Both the position numbers and the translations under genes were made by a program. Shown piece after piece: positions 45,758-52,973 of a stretch of 64,000 bases of DNA (position 1 is its first letter; each line of letters begins with the position of its first letter). The DNA comes from Bryobacterales bacterium KBS 96. Its GTDB lineage: Bacteria; Acidobacteriota; Terriglobia; Bryobacterales; Bryobacteraceae. The stretch is from contig KB906767.1 of assembly GCA_000381625.1 (NCBI GenBank), positions 1,032,629 through 1,096,628 on the forward strand, read 5' to 3'. The notes under the pieces are model-generated. The model was not told the DNA's origin and did not search any database. It saw nothing but the letters and a program-made list of their open reading frames with translations.

Positions 45758-47239
45758 CTACGACGCTTCCGCAAACAGCCCGAATTCAGATAATGCCGGG
45801 CAGACGGGCGACTCGGTGATGCGCAGGCGTAGTCTGCCGGTATTGACACTGCTATCCAGGCGGATGAGGCGGCGCGCTCCAACGCTTGTGCCCTGGGTGA
45901 GAACGCTCCAGGCCCCGTCCTTCCATGAATCAATAGCGAATGCGCCGATCCGCTGGCCCAGGCGAATGTCTTCGCGCAGCCGAATGACGTTAAACGTGGC
46001 TGGCTGGACAAAGTCGACGGTCAGTTCCGGGTTTTTGACTGAATCGTCCGTCGCCCAGTACGTGTCTCGCCGGCCGTCTACGAGATTCCGCGGTCCGTAG
46101 CCGCTGTTTCCGCCACGCACATTCGAGGCTTTCAGCTTCGCTCCGGTCGCCAGATTCTTCGCGAACGTATTTGCCGCCAGTTCGCCGAACTGCTTCAGCG
46201 AGGCCACGTCCGTGTCGTACAAAACGCCCCTACGGTCGGGAGGCATATTCAGCAGAAAGCTCGCGCCGCGGCCGACAGACTCGTAATAGAGATCCATCAA
46301 CTCGCGCGGACTCTTCACCTTGCCGTTCTCATTTTCGTGCCAGAACCAGCCCGGACGAATGGAGACATCGCATTCAGGAGGAATCCAGTGCGATCCGTTG
46401 CGAGTGCCTACCATCGAATCTTTTGCACGTACATTGCCGGGCGATGCAGGACCGCCGTTTTCTCCCACCGGGTCGTAGGTTTCCCAGCAGGTCTCTCCGG
46501 CGCGGCCCTTCTCGTTACCCACCCAGCGCACATCAGGACCGACATCGCTGAAGATCACGGCCTCCGGCTGCAGCTTTCTGACAAGCGCCCACGTGTTTGG
46601 CCAATCGTAATAAGTTTGTTTGTCGATGGTCCGTTTTTCGCGCGCTCCGCCGTAATAGCCGTCCCCACCGTTCGCGCCGTCGAACCATACTTCGAAAACG
46701 GGCCCATAGCGGCTCAGCAGCTCGGTCAATTGCTGCCAGTAGAGTTTAATGTATTCCGGTTTACCGTAATAGGCACTGTTGCGGTCCCATGGCGAGAGAT
46801 AGACGCCGAATTTCAATCCGTGCCGGTGCGCTGCCCGCGAGAGGTCCCGCACCACATCGCCTTTGCCATTTCTCCAATGGCTGTTCCGGATGCAGTGTTC
46901 GGTCGTTTGGGTAGGCCAAAGACAAAAGCCGTCGTGATGCTTGCACGTGAGAATGACGCCTTTCATGCCTCCGGCCTTCAAAGACGTCACAATCTGATCC
47001 GGATCGAATGCGGTCGGGTTGAATAGCGACGGATCTTCATCGCCATAACCCCATTCTTTATCGGTGAACGTGTTCATCGAAAAATGGACGAAGCTATAGG
47101 TCTCCATTTGATGCCACCGGAGTTGACGCGTCGACGGAAGCGCGCCGTAAGGCAACGGACCACCGGCGGAATCTCGCTTCGCCGCGAACGCAACGCCGGG
47201 CGCAGCCAGCAATAGCGATCGTCTTGTCATCGTGTTCAT
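45758..47239 (-). CDS. Secreted GH29 alpha-L-fucosidase with C-terminal discoidin-like domain
   Basis: 493 residues. The N-terminus TRRSLLLAAPGVAFAA resembles a short Tat-type signal. The GH29 barrel has SFVHFSMNTFTDKEWGYGDE, LTCKHHDGFCLWPT, HGLKFGVYLSPWDRN and the nucleophile Asp187 in VFEVWFDGANG. A C-terminal F5/8-type (discoidin) domain covers about 370-490 (NLVDGRRDTYWATDD). The enzyme removes alpha-L-fucose from glycans. Its start overlaps the stop of the beta-propeller gene (ATGA, 47236-47239), so expression is coupled with the two genes upstream. Confidence 0.93.
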   Translation of the reverse strand: MNTMTRRSLLLAAPGVAFAAKRDSAGGPLPYGALPSTRQLRWHQMETYSFVHFSMNTFTDKEWGYGDEDPSLFNPTAFDPDQIVTSLKAGGMKGVILTCKHHDGFCLWPTQTTEHCIRNSHWRNGKGDVVRDLSRAAHRHGLKFGVYLSPWDRNSAYYGKPEYIKLYWQQLTELLSRYGPVFEVWFDGANGGDGYYGGAREKRTIDKQTYYDWPNTWALVRKLQPEAVIFSDVGPDVRWVGNEKGRAGETCWETYDPVGENGGPASPGNVRAKDSMVGTRNGSHWIPPECDVSIRPGWFWHENENGKVKSPRELMDLYYESVGRGASFLLNMPPDRRGVLYDTDVASLKQFGELAANTFAKNLATGAKLKASNVRGGNSGYGPRNLVDGRRDTYWATDDSVKNPELTVDFVQPATFNVIRLREDIRLGQRIGAFAIDSWKDGAWSVLTQGTSVGARRLIRLDSSVNTGRLRLRITESPVCPALSEFGLFAEAS

Positions 47240-49488
47240 TGCTCGCTCACCACCTTAGCCAACCCGGCATTTCCGGCTGAATCATACACGCGCACGACAA
47301 TGACGTGCTCGCCGGGTTTCAGATTCTCCAGGTGTAGATGAAACTGTTCACGCTGCGAATCGGTGATGCCGTCGGCGGCTTCCACCGGCTGCCATGGCCC
47401 TGCATCGATGGAGTATTCGCATTTACGCAGTGGGCTAGTGCTGTCGTTTGCCGATACGGTTACATCGACGGCATTGCCGTTGCGCGCGGGCGCCTCCGCA
47501 ACGACGGTGGGCGGCGTATTGTCAATCAGGACCGGAGTGCTGACGAAGTCCGATTGCTGGGCATAGCGAAGATCATTTGAAGGCCGGTCCGAAGCAACAA
47601 CCCGGAAATAATAACGCCCGTCGGCAAACACATCGGGATCGAGCGTCAACGTGTTGTCGGAGATATCTTTTCGAAGCAGCTTCCATTCCCTCTCGCCGTC
47701 ACCGCGAAAATACAACGAGTAAATCAGCTTGTCGCCGTCCGGATCGTCGGCCTGCCATGTGATCTGCACCTGCATCGGCGATTGCTGGGTGAGCGTTTGC
47801 GTACCCGTGCTGGACGTACTCGCGGGAGAGGGATCGGCCGAATCGGTCACCGTCACGGTGTAAGCCGATGATGTTGAACCGCTGGAAGCGCTCGCTTTGG
47901 CCGTGTTGGAGACAGCTGTGGAGGTTACGCTCACGCTCCTCACTACTGGGGGCGTATTCTGTGGCAGGAACGGAACGACTACATTCTGCAGCTCGGACGT
48001 GCTGCCCGGAGCCCACTCGGCGCGCCACTGAATATAGCGGCCTCGCGGGCTCTGGATGCCGGCATGAGTTTGATCGCGGATGGGCGCCGACCACGAACTC
48101 CAGGTATCGTCCGGCCTGGCCGAGTTGCCCGTTCGCGTCGAAAACGTAACGCCTGGACCGATCGCTTCCCATTGCAACTGGCCCCATCGGGCAAGCGTCG
48201 TCGTGTCATGCACAGGCGATTCATAGACCGGCTTTACCGCCGTCGAATTCCCGAGCAATACCACTTTCGCTGGATTACTCAATCCGACCCACACGCCGGC
48301 GGCAGTCTTCACCAACTGGTTCGCGTCGCTATCGCCAGTTTCCGCCAACATGACCTGTTTCCGATTTTCCGTGATGGAGAAAATGCGCCCTCTTACGTCC
48401 GTGGAAAACAGCAGCCGGTCGGCATCAAGGACGAGATCGTAAACGTTGTCCTCTTTGGAAGTGCGCAGGGTTTCCACCATCCCGTTCGGATGAATGTCGT
48501 AGATCGCGGATTTCTCAACGCCACTGACATTCACGAACTGCGGGGAACTCGCTGTCACGGGCGTTACTGTCGATGTAACCGAGCTCTTGGCCGGCTCTTT
48601 CGGCTTGACATCGCCTGTTTGCTCCGGCGCGCCGGGTTCGCCATTCTCTTTTGCTTCGCTGACAGAGATCACCGTTGGCGTGGTGGCGACCACCGTCGAT
48701 CCTGTGCCGCTGCTGGAAACCACCGGGGTCTTTGTGCGGCTTGTCAGCGACCCTCCCAAAGCAGCGGCAAACACCGTGCCGTCGGCGCGGATCGCCATCG
48801 CGTGAATTTCCGGCAAGCTCGAATCGTAAACAACCGTTCCGTGCCGTGCATCCGTAATCCGGTACAGCAAACCGTTGGGTTCGCTGCCGGCGTAAAGCTG
48901 GCCTCCCGGCCCGATCGCCAGCGCCGTCACGTTCGACTGGCCAGTCTCGAAATAGATCTCCGCCTTGCCGGAAGGATCGATGCGATAAATTCGGCCCTCG
49001 TCGCCTGTTCCGGCGTAAATAGACCCGTCCGCCGCAACAGCAAGCGCCCAAATATACTTCACGTCGAGCTTCGCTACTTCCGACGCTTTGCCGTTTTCGA
49101 TGCGGTAAACGCCGCCGTTGGGAGATGTTCCGGCAAATAACCGCCCTTTGCCGTCGACGCACAATGCGAAAACTTCGGGCTGATCGGCGGTCCAGATCAG
49201 CTTCGCCGTTCCGCCGCGGTCGACATGGAACACCTTGCCGCCATGTCCGGTCGCCGCGTACACTCCGCCGTCCGGAGCGAGGGCCATCTTCCACAGCACT
49301 GGTTGATTCAGACCCTTGTTCCAGTCCTGCGCGGGGCCGGGCCGCAACCCGCCTTCGGCAGTCAACGACAGCGATTGCAGCCGCCCCTTCAACAATTCGC
49401 TCGACGAGCCGGTTTCCCACGTGGTGCTGGTCGCCGCATATGCGACAAAGACGCCGGCCATCGCCGCTGCTGACAGTTTCTTGATCAC
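47236..49488 (-). CDS. Secreted beta-propeller protein with Ig/fibronectin-like C-terminus
   Basis: 750 residues, signal peptide (MIKKLSAAAMAGVFVAYA). Residues 60-260 are propeller blades with the repeating form G..YAGTG..G.IYRID..GKAE (for example KVFHVDRGG, GGVYRIENGK, GRIYRIDPSG, GLLYRITDA). A Ser/Thr-rich insert (260-320) separates further blades up to 420. The rest is Ig/fibronectin-like strands (ADDPDGDKLIYSLYFRGDGEREWKLL, LRKCEYSIDAGPWQPVEA). It is translationally coupled to both neighbours. It could bind or sense a glycan or peptide; no enzyme site seen. Confidence 0.82.
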   Translation of the reverse strand: MIKKLSAAAMAGVFVAYAATSTTWETGSSSELLKGRLQSLSLTAEGGLRPGPAQDWNKGLNQPVLWKMALAPDGGVYAATGHGGKVFHVDRGGTAKLIWTADQPEVFALCVDGKGRLFAGTSPNGGVYRIENGKASEVAKLDVKYIWALAVAADGSIYAGTGDEGRIYRIDPSGKAEIYFETGQSNVTALAIGPGGQLYAGSEPNGLLYRITDARHGTVVYDSSLPEIHAMAIRADGTVFAAALGGSLTSRTKTPVVSSSGTGSTVVATTPTVISVSEAKENGEPGAPEQTGDVKPKEPAKSSVTSTVTPVTASSPQFVNVSGVEKSAIYDIHPNGMVETLRTSKEDNVYDLVLDADRLLFSTDVRGRIFSITENRKQVMLAETGDSDANQLVKTAAGVWVGLSNPAKVVLLGNSTAVKPVYESPVHDTTTLARWGQLQWEAIGPGVTFSTRTGNSARPDDTWSSWSAPIRDQTHAGIQSPRGRYIQWRAEWAPGSTSELQNVVVPFLPQNTPPVVRSVSVTSTAVSNTAKASASSGSTSSAYTVTVTDSADPSPASTSSTGTQTLTQQSPMQVQITWQADDPDGDKLIYSLYFRGDGEREWKLLRKDISDNTLTLDPDVFADGRYYFRVVASDRPSNDLRYAQQSDFVSTPVLIDNTPPTVVAEAPARNGNAVDVTVSANDSTSPLRKCEYSIDAGPWQPVEAADGITDSQREQFHLHLENLKPGEHVIVVRVYDSAGNAGLAKVVSEQ

Positions 49489-51290
49489 TCTTTGATTTCC
49501 AATTGAACAGTCTTCGAACCGCTGACTACGTAATTTCCCGCGGAGATCGACATTTCAGCAACCTGCGCGCCGCGCGCGACAAACAGGCTTCCGCCGCCTC
49601 CCACTGAACTGGACGACTTCGAGAGCACGATGGCGGCTGAGGGCGGGGGGTCCGTCAGATCAACCCCGGGCAATTGAAACGAGGGCTCCTGACGCCAGAT
49701 GCGAACATACGCCTTGTCGTTCGGCCTGATTCCATTCAGAATGCCGACGAGCTGCCGTCCGGAGCGGGCCGACTCGGGCGTCAAGCCGGCGAGCTCGCTG
49801 AAATTGAGAAGATTGCCGTCGCTCACAGTGAAAAACAGCCGCCCGACCGGAGCGCCGACGGGAACGCGATAGCGCACCGCTTTCTGGATCTGTTGTCCGT
49901 GTTCGCCTGAGAGCACACAGGTGATGTCGATCGTGTCGCCCGGACGAGCCTCGCGCTGCGAGAGCCAGACCTCGTCGATCTGCAATTGGTGCTTCTGTTC
50001 CGACGGCTCGACGACAAATGAGATTTGCTTTGGTTTGAGCTCGTTGAAACCGGACTGCATCGCAAACGAAAGCGGCGTCACCAGGCTGATGGCGGCCTGC
50101 AACGCCACGGCTGAATCGGCGGTGAACACGTTGCTCACATCGAGCGGCGGTTCATTTCCTTCAAACTCGATGTGCCCGTCCACCCGCAGACTGCCCGCGC
50201 CGGTGCTGCGCTCCGTCGCGTCGATGGTCGAAAACAGCGCCATTTGCGTTAGAACCGGAGTCAACAGCCGGTCGTCCGCCACGTTGATGTTGTAGTCGTG
50301 AACGCCGGTCGCGCCTTTCACGACAACATGCATGGGAACCAGGTGCGCTGGGCGGCCGATCTCGCCGGCGATGGAGGTGCTGAAATCGCTGGTAATGCTG
50401 CCGACCAGTTCGCGCGGAGCGGAGATCTTGAACGAAGCGTTCAAGCTCGGCAGAAGCGTCAGCACTTCCGCTCGCGCAAACGGAAGGTCGGTGAGACCGG
50501 TATCCAGAAAGCGATGGCCGAAGGCATAGATTTTCTTGCCATCCACGTATGTCACCGTCCCGTCGGCGCCCACATTCAGATCGCCGTTCATCAATTGCAC
50601 GCTGATCATGTCGCCGGGTTGCACGGCTCCCGTGTATTGTTTTGTCGTCGGCGCTCCACCGCCGATTCCGGCTTCCGGTTCAAATCCGAGAGCACGGAGC
50701 CTTGGGCCGAACGCTCGTACTGTCGCCTCGGTAAACCCGCTGAACGCAACGGGCGTCGAAATGTCGTGCAATTCCGGTTGCGAGCGCGGCGCCAGCGCCG
50801 CAAGCGTAGGCTTGAACTGGTCCAACATGTTCGAGGCGAATTGCTTGTAGTTCGTCCGGGAAAGCGATTGCACCGCAGCGCGCGACGGCGTGCTTTCGAT
50901 CATTTGTTCAATCGGCTGGATGCCCGCAATCGGCTCTTTCGAAAACGGAAATCCCAGCGCGACTGCGCCTAGCAGCTTGCCGTCGATGTAAACGGGACTG
51001 CCGCTCATGCCCTGAATCACCCCTGTTTCGGCGAGCGGCCCTCCGCTGAGCCTTGCGAGCACAATCGCCTGTTTCGGGCTGGTGTTTTCGATCACGCCCA
51101 GAATGTCTACTTGAAAGTCAACGACGCGGCCGCCTGCAAATACCGTTTTGCCGACGCCCTTCATTCCAGGCTTTACATCCTTTAGCGGAAAGAACGGAGT
51201 GGCTCCGAAACTTGGGAGCCAAAGGATGAGCATGCAAATCAGAGGTAAAAAGCGTTTCAATGTTCGAATCTCGAGCGCCGTAGGGCGCAC
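49485..51290 (-). CDS. SpoIVB/S55-like serine protease-type protein
   Basis: 601 residues. A hydrophobic segment (about 13-28) forms a signal or anchor. Residues 32-110 contain FPLKDVKPGMKGVGKTVFAGG and the S55 nucleophile motif VIQGMSGSPVYIDGKLLGA with Ser98. A GHRF motif with the likely catalytic His259 (KKIYAFGHRFLDTG) comes about 160 residues later, followed by IGxI-like SITSDFSTSIAGEIG. In B. subtilis SpoIVB the histidine precedes the serine, so the order is reversed here (from memory). The remaining 280 residues are beta-rich. First gene of a three-gene coupled unit with the propeller and fucosidase. Substrate unknown. Confidence 0.8.
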   Translation of the reverse strand: MRPTALEIRTLKRFLPLICMLILWLPSFGATPFFPLKDVKPGMKGVGKTVFAGGRVVDFQVDILGVIENTSPKQAIVLARLSGGPLAETGVIQGMSGSPVYIDGKLLGAVALGFPFSKEPIAGIQPIEQMIESTPSRAAVQSLSRTNYKQFASNMLDQFKPTLAALAPRSQPELHDISTPVAFSGFTEATVRAFGPRLRALGFEPEAGIGGGAPTTKQYTGAVQPGDMISVQLMNGDLNVGADGTVTYVDGKKIYAFGHRFLDTGLTDLPFARAEVLTLLPSLNASFKISAPRELVGSITSDFSTSIAGEIGRPAHLVPMHVVVKGATGVHDYNINVADDRLLTPVLTQMALFSTIDATERSTGAGSLRVDGHIEFEGNEPPLDVSNVFTADSAVALQAAISLVTPLSFAMQSGFNELKPKQISFVVEPSEQKHQLQIDEVWLSQREARPGDTIDITCVLSGEHGQQIQKAVRYRVPVGAPVGRLFFTVSDGNLLNFSELAGLTPESARSGRQLVGILNGIRPNDKAYVRIWRQEPSFQLPGVDLTDPPPSAAIVLSKSSSSVGGGGSLFVARGAQVAEMSISAGNYVVSGSKTVQLEIKE

Positions 51291-51426
51291 AACCGTATTT
51301 TAGGTGGATCGCCTTAAGGTGTTCTTAAGAAGAGACGCTCCAGCCCCGATTTTGGGGCACACGAATGTCGCCAACAGAGGCCTCCACCTGGAGTTGCATG
51401 CTGTGTTCTACTGGAATGGTCGCCAC

Positions 51427-52317
51427 ATGGTCAGCGGTCCTTTTGCGCCGCCTCAGGCCGAAGTCCATTCGAAGACGCGCCCGCCGTGGATTCCGCTCGT
51501 TTGGTTCGGCATTCTGCTTTTATTTTGCTACGCGCCCATTCTGAGCAGACTGGTTCTCAACTGGTCTTCGGATCAGGATATGGGACATGGCTTTTTTGTG
51601 CCCCTCGTCGCCGGCTATATAGTCTGGCAGCGGCGTGGAAGACTAGCCTCTATTCCACATCAATCATCTATATGGGGATTGGCCCTGGTGGTTTATGCGG
51701 CTGTTCAGGCCCTTGCCGGAACGGTTGGCGCTGAACTGTTCACCGCTCGCATCGCGTTCGTGCTTTCACTGACCGGTATCCTTCTTTATCTGGGCGGCAA
51801 AGCTTGGGTAAAGGAACTCGCCTTCCCTCTGCTGCTGCTGCTCTTCATGATCCCCATTCCGCAAATCGTCTATGCGCGATTGACCATGCATCTGCAATTT
51901 CTCGCGAGCGGACTGGCGGAGACACTCATCGGCCTGATGGGCATTCCGGTCATACGAACCGGCAATGTTCTGGAACTGCCCCACCAAACGCTGAATATCG
52001 TTGAAGCATGCAGCGGTATCCGTTCCCTGATTTCTCTGAGTTTTCTCTCGCTCGTCTATGCGTACTTCGCGGATAAACGCGTCTGGATGAGGTGGGCGCT
52101 GCTGATTGCGACCGTTCCAATCGCGATCGCCGCAAACGCAATCCGGGTCGCGCTCACCGGCCTCCTGAGCCAGTTCGATACGAACCTGGCCAAAGGTCTT
52201 TATCACGAGATTGAAGGCTATTTCGTGTTCATGGTCGCTTTGATCTGCCTGCTGGCTGTTCACCGCGGGATGTCCACCGCCGCCCGCCGCTGGAGCAAAG
52301 CTCACGGAAGCGCATAA
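51427..52317 (+). CDS. Exosortase (EpsH-type transpeptidase-like membrane protein)
   Basis: 296 residues from the ATG at 51427; the frame extends 41 codons upstream to 51304 but that part lacks family character. Eight or so transmembrane helices. The catalytic residues of exosortases are all present: Cys195 in VEACSGIRSL, Arg240 in ANAIRVALTG and His260 in LYHEIEGYFVFMVAL. Exosortases cut PEP-CTERM-type tails and attach proteins to the surface, often with exopolysaccharide production. The following epsI gene starts within its stop codon. It diverges from the S55-like gene. Confidence 0.94.
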   Translation: MVSGPFAPPQAEVHSKTRPPWIPLVWFGILLLFCYAPILSRLVLNWSSDQDMGHGFFVPLVAGYIVWQRRGRLASIPHQSSIWGLALVVYAAVQALAGTVGAELFTARIAFVLSLTGILLYLGGKAWVKELAFPLLLLLFMIPIPQIVYARLTMHLQFLASGLAETLIGLMGIPVIRTGNVLELPHQTLNIVEACSGIRSLISLSFLSLVYAYFADKRVWMRWALLIATVPIAIAANAIRVALTGLLSQFDTNLAKGLYHEIEGYFVFMVALICLLAVHRGMSTAARRWSKAHGSA

Positions 52318-52973
52318 TGGCGGGAATTTTCAAAAGGCAAGCGCCCAAGATCCTCACAATCGTGCTGCTGGCCCAGGCGGCTGTGTTCTACAGCTTCTCG
52401 CGCGGCGAACACATTCCTTCCGCAAAGCCTCTGTCAAATTTCGAAATTCCTTCAACACTGTGGGCGCCCGTCCGCGAACTGACGATTGATGAAGAGACGC
52501 GGCAAGTATTGAACGCCGACGATACGCTTTGGCGCGCGTACCAGAATCGGGAAACGGGTGATGTTCTTAGCCTTTTCGTGGCGTACTTCGCCTCCCAGCG
52601 AACCGGCAAAACTCCACACTCTCCGAAGAACTGCCTGCCGGGCGCCGGCTGGGCGCCCAGTGAAGCCGGAATCATTAAAATTTCGCAACCTAACGAGCCA
52701 GTGCCGATTACCGTAAATCGCTACGTCGTGAGTCGAGACGAAAATCAAAGCGTTGTCCTTTATTGGTATCAGGGGCACGGACGCGTCATTGCTAGCGAAT
52801 ACGAGGCTAAGATTTATACGGTCCTCGATTCGCTCCGCTACAAACGAAGCGATACATCGCTGATTCGGGTGGTTCAGGGCGTTAGGGACGGAAACACACA
52901 GCGCGCAACCGATGACGCAGTCTCGTTCGTGAAAGCTTTCTTTCAACCGCTGCGAGAGTACCTGCCTGGTTGA
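52317..52973 (+). CDS. epsI: EpsI (DUF3485) exosortase-associated protein
   Basis: 218 residues with one N-terminal membrane segment (about 10-28). DUF3485/EpsI pattern: PLSNFEIPSTLWAPVRELTIDEETRQVLNADDTLWRAYQN, FVAYFASQRTGKTPHSPKNCLPGAGWAP with a central Cys, and SVVLYWYQGHGRVIASEY. In many genomes the same sequence is fused to the exosortase C-terminus; here it is a separate gene overlapping by one base (TAATG). It is presumed to work outside the membrane with exosortase. No PEP-CTERM tail was found in any protein of the window. Confidence 0.93.
   Translation: MAGIFKRQAPKILTIVLLAQAAVFYSFSRGEHIPSAKPLSNFEIPSTLWAPVRELTIDEETRQVLNADDTLWRAYQNRETGDVLSLFVAYFASQRTGKTPHSPKNCLPGAGWAPSEAGIIKISQPNEPVPITVNRYVVSRDENQSVVLYWYQGHGRVIASEYEAKIYTVLDSLRYKRSDTSLIRVVQGVRDGNTQRATDDAVSFVKAFFQPLREYLPG

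Follow-up and report, generated by a model that had tools for sequence, protein, structure and literature searches.

A SpoIVB-related protease of Acidobacteriota with an apparently reversed barrel order and a propeller partner

What kind of enzyme is a serine protease whose serine motif precedes its histidine motif, and with which proteins does it work? The question is raised by a locus of Bryobacterales bacterium KBS 96 (Acidobacteriota), which lies in a stretch of 64,000 nucleotides of contig KB906767.1 (hereafter the window). An initial annotation had described an S55-like protease, a propeller protein and a fucosidase there, coupled in one unit that could serve as a surface system for fucosylated glycans. 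We confirmed all three co-directional open reading frames (ORFs; Table 1). Read from the sequence, the propeller and fucosidase genes overlap by ATGA, as had been claimed for all three genes, but the junction between protease and propeller is a GTGA overlap. The identities of the two downstream products hold: the propeller protein matches Reg_prop (PF07494; 27.2 bits, cut-off 20.4) and other propeller models, and the fucosidase, assigned to its family by profile, matches GH29 (PF01120; 133.6 bits, cut-off 25.2) as well as F5/8C. The protease is S55-like in one part only: it matches Peptidase_S55 (PF05580) with 36 bits (gathering cut-off 25; E = 9.7e-9), but the match is limited to its Ser part, residues 49-112 on profile positions 127-192 of 210.

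We consider it fairly probable that the protein is a predicted envelope protease of the chymotrypsin fold, related to SpoIVB, in which the two barrels are swapped and which works with a dedicated propeller partner. Relative to SpoIVB, the Ser-bearing barrel would come first in the chain and the His-bearing barrel second; the halves would fold back into a single active site, bringing Ser96, His259 and probably Asp302 close together; and the predicted endopeptidase would act outside the cytoplasm with the propeller encoded downstream, which might bring or gate the substrates or might itself be the substrate.

As a set of loci we took the best 80 of at least 591 relatives found in a scan of named genomes, and we aligned the window protease with 79 of the 80 fetched relatives, a partial one (L066) being dropped. 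The order pointed out initially, with the Ser motif before the His motif and hence the reverse of SpoIVB, is kept in 80 of 80 sequences, each with a conserved GH motif C-terminal to GMSGSP. A full-chain model built from the 80 aligned sequences has a predicted local distance difference test score (pLDDT) of 88.7 and a predicted template modelling score of 0.87. VIA aligned residues ~30-135 with the C-terminal portion of proteases of the Deg/HtrA, viral 3C-like and Spl kinds (best Z 10.2), the rows being headed by Deg2, DegQ and DegP (Z 9.7-10.2), and the structure of SpoIVB (9lnf) aligns over 104 residues at 2.5 Å with Z 8.9 and 23% identity. By hhalign, with four SpoIVB sequences, residues 51-140 fall on the C-terminal region of SpoIVB with a probability of 97%, and none of 200 column shuffles gave as good a profile alignment. 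Among the Foldseek rows for the whole chain is the protease Rv3671c (E 0.076, with a probability of 1.00). In the predicted structure, a Ser-bearing barrel of the chymotrypsin fold (clan PA) is present at residues ~30-135.

The second half, residues 172-348, was modelled alone with a pLDDT of 85. VIA listed 50 rows for it, with Z from 6.9 to 4.7, and 49 of them belong to serine proteases of the chymotrypsin fold, as judged by title or general knowledge; the best row (Z 6.9) covers 88 residues at 3.2 Å. The 50th row, a chain from the toxin particle Umb1, is no protease by its title; we take it to carry a trypsin-like domain. Nearly all of these alignments start where the mature target chain does, pointing to the N-terminal barrel. 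Foldseek returned SplE and SplA at probability 1.00 with E of 0.02 and above, and Trypsin_2 matches 3 of the 80 whole sequences weakly (best E 0.038). A separate, weak hhalign alignment places residues 187-321 on the PDZ-His region of SpoIVB, with His259 on His236; a C-terminal control region gave 0.1%. Against the His region of SpoIVB, 0 of 200 shuffles were as good as the His half, and when the two halves were swapped in silico both alignments merged into one of 234 columns, the score moving from 85.9 to 89.8. SpoIVB is absent from the 50 listed rows of this half, which proves nothing either way.

The profile searches bear on the order of the halves from another side. PF05580 has a match in 71 of 80 sampled Acidobacteriota genomes, over the cut-off in 66, and none of the 72 matches in all starts before profile position 104, upstream of which we place the His part of the profile. 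A lack of the usual order predicts this result, although a weak His part could also go unreported.

Several results weigh against a swap of the barrels. The hhalign probability for the His half is 2%, or 7% when the half is used alone; 5 of 200 shuffles were as good when the whole of SpoIVB was the target; the gain in score from swapping the halves is small; and PF05580 was reached by just one His-half fragment in 80, with an E of 0.1. The VIA ranges of the His half end near the C-terminus of the target, thus extending beyond the N-terminal barrel, and its best Z sits in a range that may reflect merely a common arrangement. No PDB match reached E ≤ 0.001 in Foldseek with either the full chain or the His half, and the highest-ranking rows of the whole chain belong to unrelated proteins. 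A shared N-terminal first strand, hinted at by the VIA range of 29-135 against 9lnf 103-416, was not above chance by sequence (138 and 146 of 200 shuffles as good). A proof of permutation from sequence alone was attempted and failed: in the PDB the His half found no SpoIVB at E ≤ 10, and in Pfam next to nothing.

These points lend themselves to another explanation, namely that the protein consists of two unrelated domains, the first alone being related to SpoIVB, and that the FGH motif is conserved for some other reason. The restriction of PF05580 to the Ser part and the modest evidence for the His half, by sequence and by fold score, fit such a protein, but the VIA rows listed are of the chymotrypsin fold in at least 49 cases out of 50, and His259 and Asp302 are the sole invariant histidine and the sole invariant acid of the family; we regard two unrelated domains as quite improbable. 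Taken together, the reversed barrel order relative to SpoIVB is supported but not proven. Of the circular permutation suggested initially, the exchange in barrel order is backed by fold and profile matches, with modest evidence on the side of the His half. None of the results favours the self-processing type that was also named initially.

The invariant residues include some of catalytic type. Among the 33 invariant columns of the 80 aligned sequences are Ser96, Ser98, Thr247 and Ser551 in addition to His259 and Asp302, and the triad-like residues are invariant also in 30 of 30 sequences of a second sample, which possibly overlaps the first. Ser98, taken initially as the motif serine, is indeed invariant in 80 of 80, but alignment with Ser378 of SpoIVB makes Ser96 the predicted nucleophile; with this correction, the initial reading of the protein as a protease largely holds. 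Asp302 follows His259 by 43 residues, a spacing close to that of His57 and Asp102 in chymotrypsin, and may complete the triad. A second candidate for the catalytic acid is Asp237, which is conserved in 78 of 80 sequences and by eye aligns with an Asp that each of the four SpoIVB sequences has (Asp213). Where the family has Asp302, these four carry Asn, Asn, Ser and Asn, the residue being Asn290 in B. subtilis. According to the SpoIVB authors (PMC12502668), Asp363 lies ~24 Å from His236, no Asp is near the active His, and Thr393 is proposed instead. Chain A of PDB 9lnf reads GMAGAP, with Ser378 and Ser380 both replaced by Ala, while the passages of the paper used here name only S378A.

The comparison with known proteases sets the family apart from each of them. 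With SpoIVB of B. subtilis (S55) it shares the GMSGSP motif and the barrel around the Ser, as well as a GT[VM]T...GH stretch around the His. In SpoIVB, however, the His part precedes the Ser part and a PDZ domain is present, whereas in the Acidobacteriota protease the His part follows, no PDZ was found and there is an extra C-terminal region; SpoIVB is also tied to endospores. No PDZ is among the 11 Pfam families matched in the 80 sequences (E ≤ 0.1; sequence profiles only). Residues 172-224 (window 50619-50777) align weakly with the PDZ region of SpoIVB (4 of 200 shuffles as good) and are possibly a PDZ remnant. Against TIGR02860, the SpoIVB equivalog, the window protein scores 29.6 bits in its Ser part only, below the curated cut-off of 305.25; all 80 members of our set A2 match this model at E ≤ 0.001, a count that does not involve the cut-off. 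In its barrel order, its lack of a PDZ match and its equivalog score the protease departs from SpoIVB, and it therefore stands outside SpoIVB in the strict sense. The passages of PMC6411480 used here give no PDZ-bearing SpoIVB for Acidobacteria.

Two further groups resemble one half each. The C-terminal barrel of the HtrA/Deg enzymes (DegP, DegQ, DegS), which are envelope proteases, matches the Ser half with Z up to 10.2, but their barrel order differs, no PDZ was found in the window protease, and identity in their VIA rows is 9-18%. For the His half, the top-scoring rows are those of the V8/Spl glutamyl-endopeptidase-like proteases, whose alignments start at the mature N-terminus (Z 5-7); they are single-domain secreted enzymes with the usual barrel order. 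A literature search by title and the start of the abstract, which left most subscription papers uncovered, found among the papers listed no barrel-swapped S55 or chymotrypsin-fold protease.

We then asked which of the neighbouring genes belong with the protease. For this we used 199 Acidobacteriota genomes, the window genome included, with a protease match threshold of E ≤ 1e-10, and a better-quality subset of 179. The protease is present in 187 of the 199 (174 of the 179), and the propeller likewise in 187 of the 199: both genes occur in 186 genomes, neither in 11, the protease alone in one (G159) and the propeller alone in one (G136), where the match is marginal (9e-11). In the better subset the counts are 173 with both, five with neither and one with the protease alone. 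Fisher tests of co-occurrence give 4e-16 for the 199 genomes and 4e-9 for the 179, with related genomes treated as independent. Among the 80 loci, whose flanks vary in length up to 10 kb a side, 67 have the propeller 0-902 bases downstream of the protease on the same strand. In the other 13, the sequence stops less than 0.5 kb from the protease in five and at 1.1-1.7 kb in three, and five hold more than 3.9 kb without a propeller; a profile search of nine of these 13 loci recovered none. The best matches in 103 genomes place the propeller within 6 kb downstream on the same strand in 81.

Three points count against so tight a pairing. The Fisher values ignore kinship among the genomes; seven of the 12 genomes without the protease are less than 90% complete; and in 22 of the 103 genomes the best protease and the best propeller are not adjacent (five on the same contig, 17 on another). 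Some of the unlinked cases are broken assemblies or multiple copies, as in G092, which has two adjacent pairs and whose best protease and best propeller were drawn from different pairs; others suggest co-occurrence without linkage. Two adjacent pairs each are found in G092, G128 and G169 among the rows listed, and the window genome has a second, diverged pair, 29% and 28% identical to the first (tblastn). Protease and propeller form a two-gene module that is near-universal among the sampled Acidobacteriota. According to PMC8841776, S55 is widespread in acidobacteria but missing in two animal-associated strains. On plasmids the protease had no relative, and none turned up on viral contigs, which were scanned with SpoIVB as the sole query.

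The propeller family itself is well defined: Reg_prop is matched by 41 of the 43 partner proteins scanned, and propellers of the PDB match positions ~60-270 of the partner profile. It differs from Reg_prop-type and designed beta-propellers in its added C-terminal part resembling immunoglobulin (Ig) and FN3 domains, a conserved W-rich middle stretch and the adjacent protease. By eye, both protease and propeller likely carry an export signal. Such signals, the near-universal co-occurrence and the second pair in the genome would also suit a surface maturation or quality-control protease that trims the propeller or other exported proteins, the propeller being its substrate or scaffold. Co-occurrence, however, cannot separate a partner from a substrate; we hold such a role to be a plausible possibility, short of an even chance. 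Only a little more confidently do we entertain the wider version of our own proposal, still as a tentative one, in which the reversal of the barrel order led to a protease family that is a core envelope component across the phylum and makes up, together with the propeller, a hitherto undescribed proteolytic complex that might act in signalling.

What follows the propeller gene is variable. Among the 56 loci in which 2.5 kb or more of sequence lies beyond a propeller, relatives of an extracytoplasmic function (ECF) sigma factor, zf-HC2 and DUF4097 follow on the same strand in nine (L072, L073, L079, L080, L092, L099, L103, L106 and L107), whose proteases fall into three groups 34-43% identical between groups. 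These genes raise the idea of a regulatory protease that makes the first cut of a signalling cascade and so detaches the ECF sigma factor from its membrane-bound anti-sigma partner, with the propeller sensing the signal, and SpoIVB too acts in a proteolytic signalling cascade (PMC12502668). In the window and in the remaining 47 of the 56 loci, however, the propeller is not followed by sigma genes, and in 7 of the 80 loci a shikimate kinase gene comes after it, so that the sigma neighbours may be incidental; a regulatory role of this kind seems unlikely to us. One gene cluster is represented in six of the 80 loci (L041, L047, L053, L056, L057 and L081), and Pfam identifies its L041 member as a rhomboid protease; its gene stands directly after the propeller on the opposite strand in L047, L053, L056 and L057.

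The fucosidase fares differently from the propeller. Conservation of the trio across genomes had been set beforehand as a check, and a lack of it as a refutation; it is the protease-propeller pair that proved conserved, not the trio: GH29 has no match at E ≤ 1e-5 in any of the 80 related loci, against 67 with the propeller, nor does it match within the 18 kb that surround the second pair of the window genome. A conserved trio is thereby ruled out as a candidate, and the fucosidase is a local add-on that joined the operon in the lineage of the window. The surface system for fucosylated glycans, made up of all three proteins, had in its favour the ATGA overlap of propeller and fucosidase and the GH29 and F5/8C domains; given the absence of GH29 matches from the 80 loci and from around the second pair, we find it very hard to credit.

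On the other side of the protease, exosortase and DUF3485 genes lie near the pair in 11 of the 80 loci, head-to-head in ten and on the same strand in L048. With so few loci we set the exosortase aside as a system component, and both genes probably lie outside the module. In the window, the longest-ORF starts of protease and exosortase are only 13 bases apart (51291-51303). Clustering of 1058 ORFs found no family besides protease and propeller in more than 10 of the 80 loci, under a strict setting that joined the protease itself in only 59 and that diverged neighbours can escape.

Table 1. Positions of the genes, protease regions and predicted catalytic residues (window coordinates unless stated otherwise)
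Feature	Position	Strand	Remarks
GH29 alpha-L-fucosidase with F5/8C domain	45758..47239	-	local addition outside the conserved module
Beta-propeller protein	47236..49488	-	C-terminal Ig/FN3-like domains; likely signal peptide (by eye); conserved partner
S55-like serine protease	49485..51290	-	601 amino acids from GTG, in-frame TTG downstream of it; hydrophobic N-terminal helix 12-23
Ser half, residues 30-140	50871..51203	-	predicted equivalent of the chymotrypsin-fold C-terminal barrel
His half, residues 172-348	50247..50777	-	probable N-terminal-barrel equivalent
C-terminal region, residues 349-601	49488..50246	-	mixed strands and helices in the model
Ser96 codon	51003..51005	-	predicted nucleophile; first Ser of GMSGSP; aligns with SpoIVB Ser378
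His259 codon	50514..50516	-	predicted catalytic base; FGH motif; aligned with SpoIVB His236
Asp302 codon	50385..50387	-	proposed catalytic acid
Exosortase and DUF3485 genes	51304..52973	+	divergent from the protease
Second protease-propeller pair	L115:6823-10972, within G000:C1:1108000-1126000		same genome

If the barrel order is as we propose, a well-studied enzyme fold has a natural variant in which its halves are swapped. The Pfam and NCBIfam models recognise just the Ser part and name the protease family after SpoIVB; to our knowledge, Acidobacteriota are not known to form endospores. The family also bears on SpoIVB itself, where Asn290 occupies the place of the Asp that is invariant in the Acidobacteriota proteases and where its authors saw no Asp near the active His (PMC12502668). 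With the pair in 173 of the 179 better genomes, and no stated function found for it, the protease and its propeller are a good target for the cell biology of Acidobacteriota.

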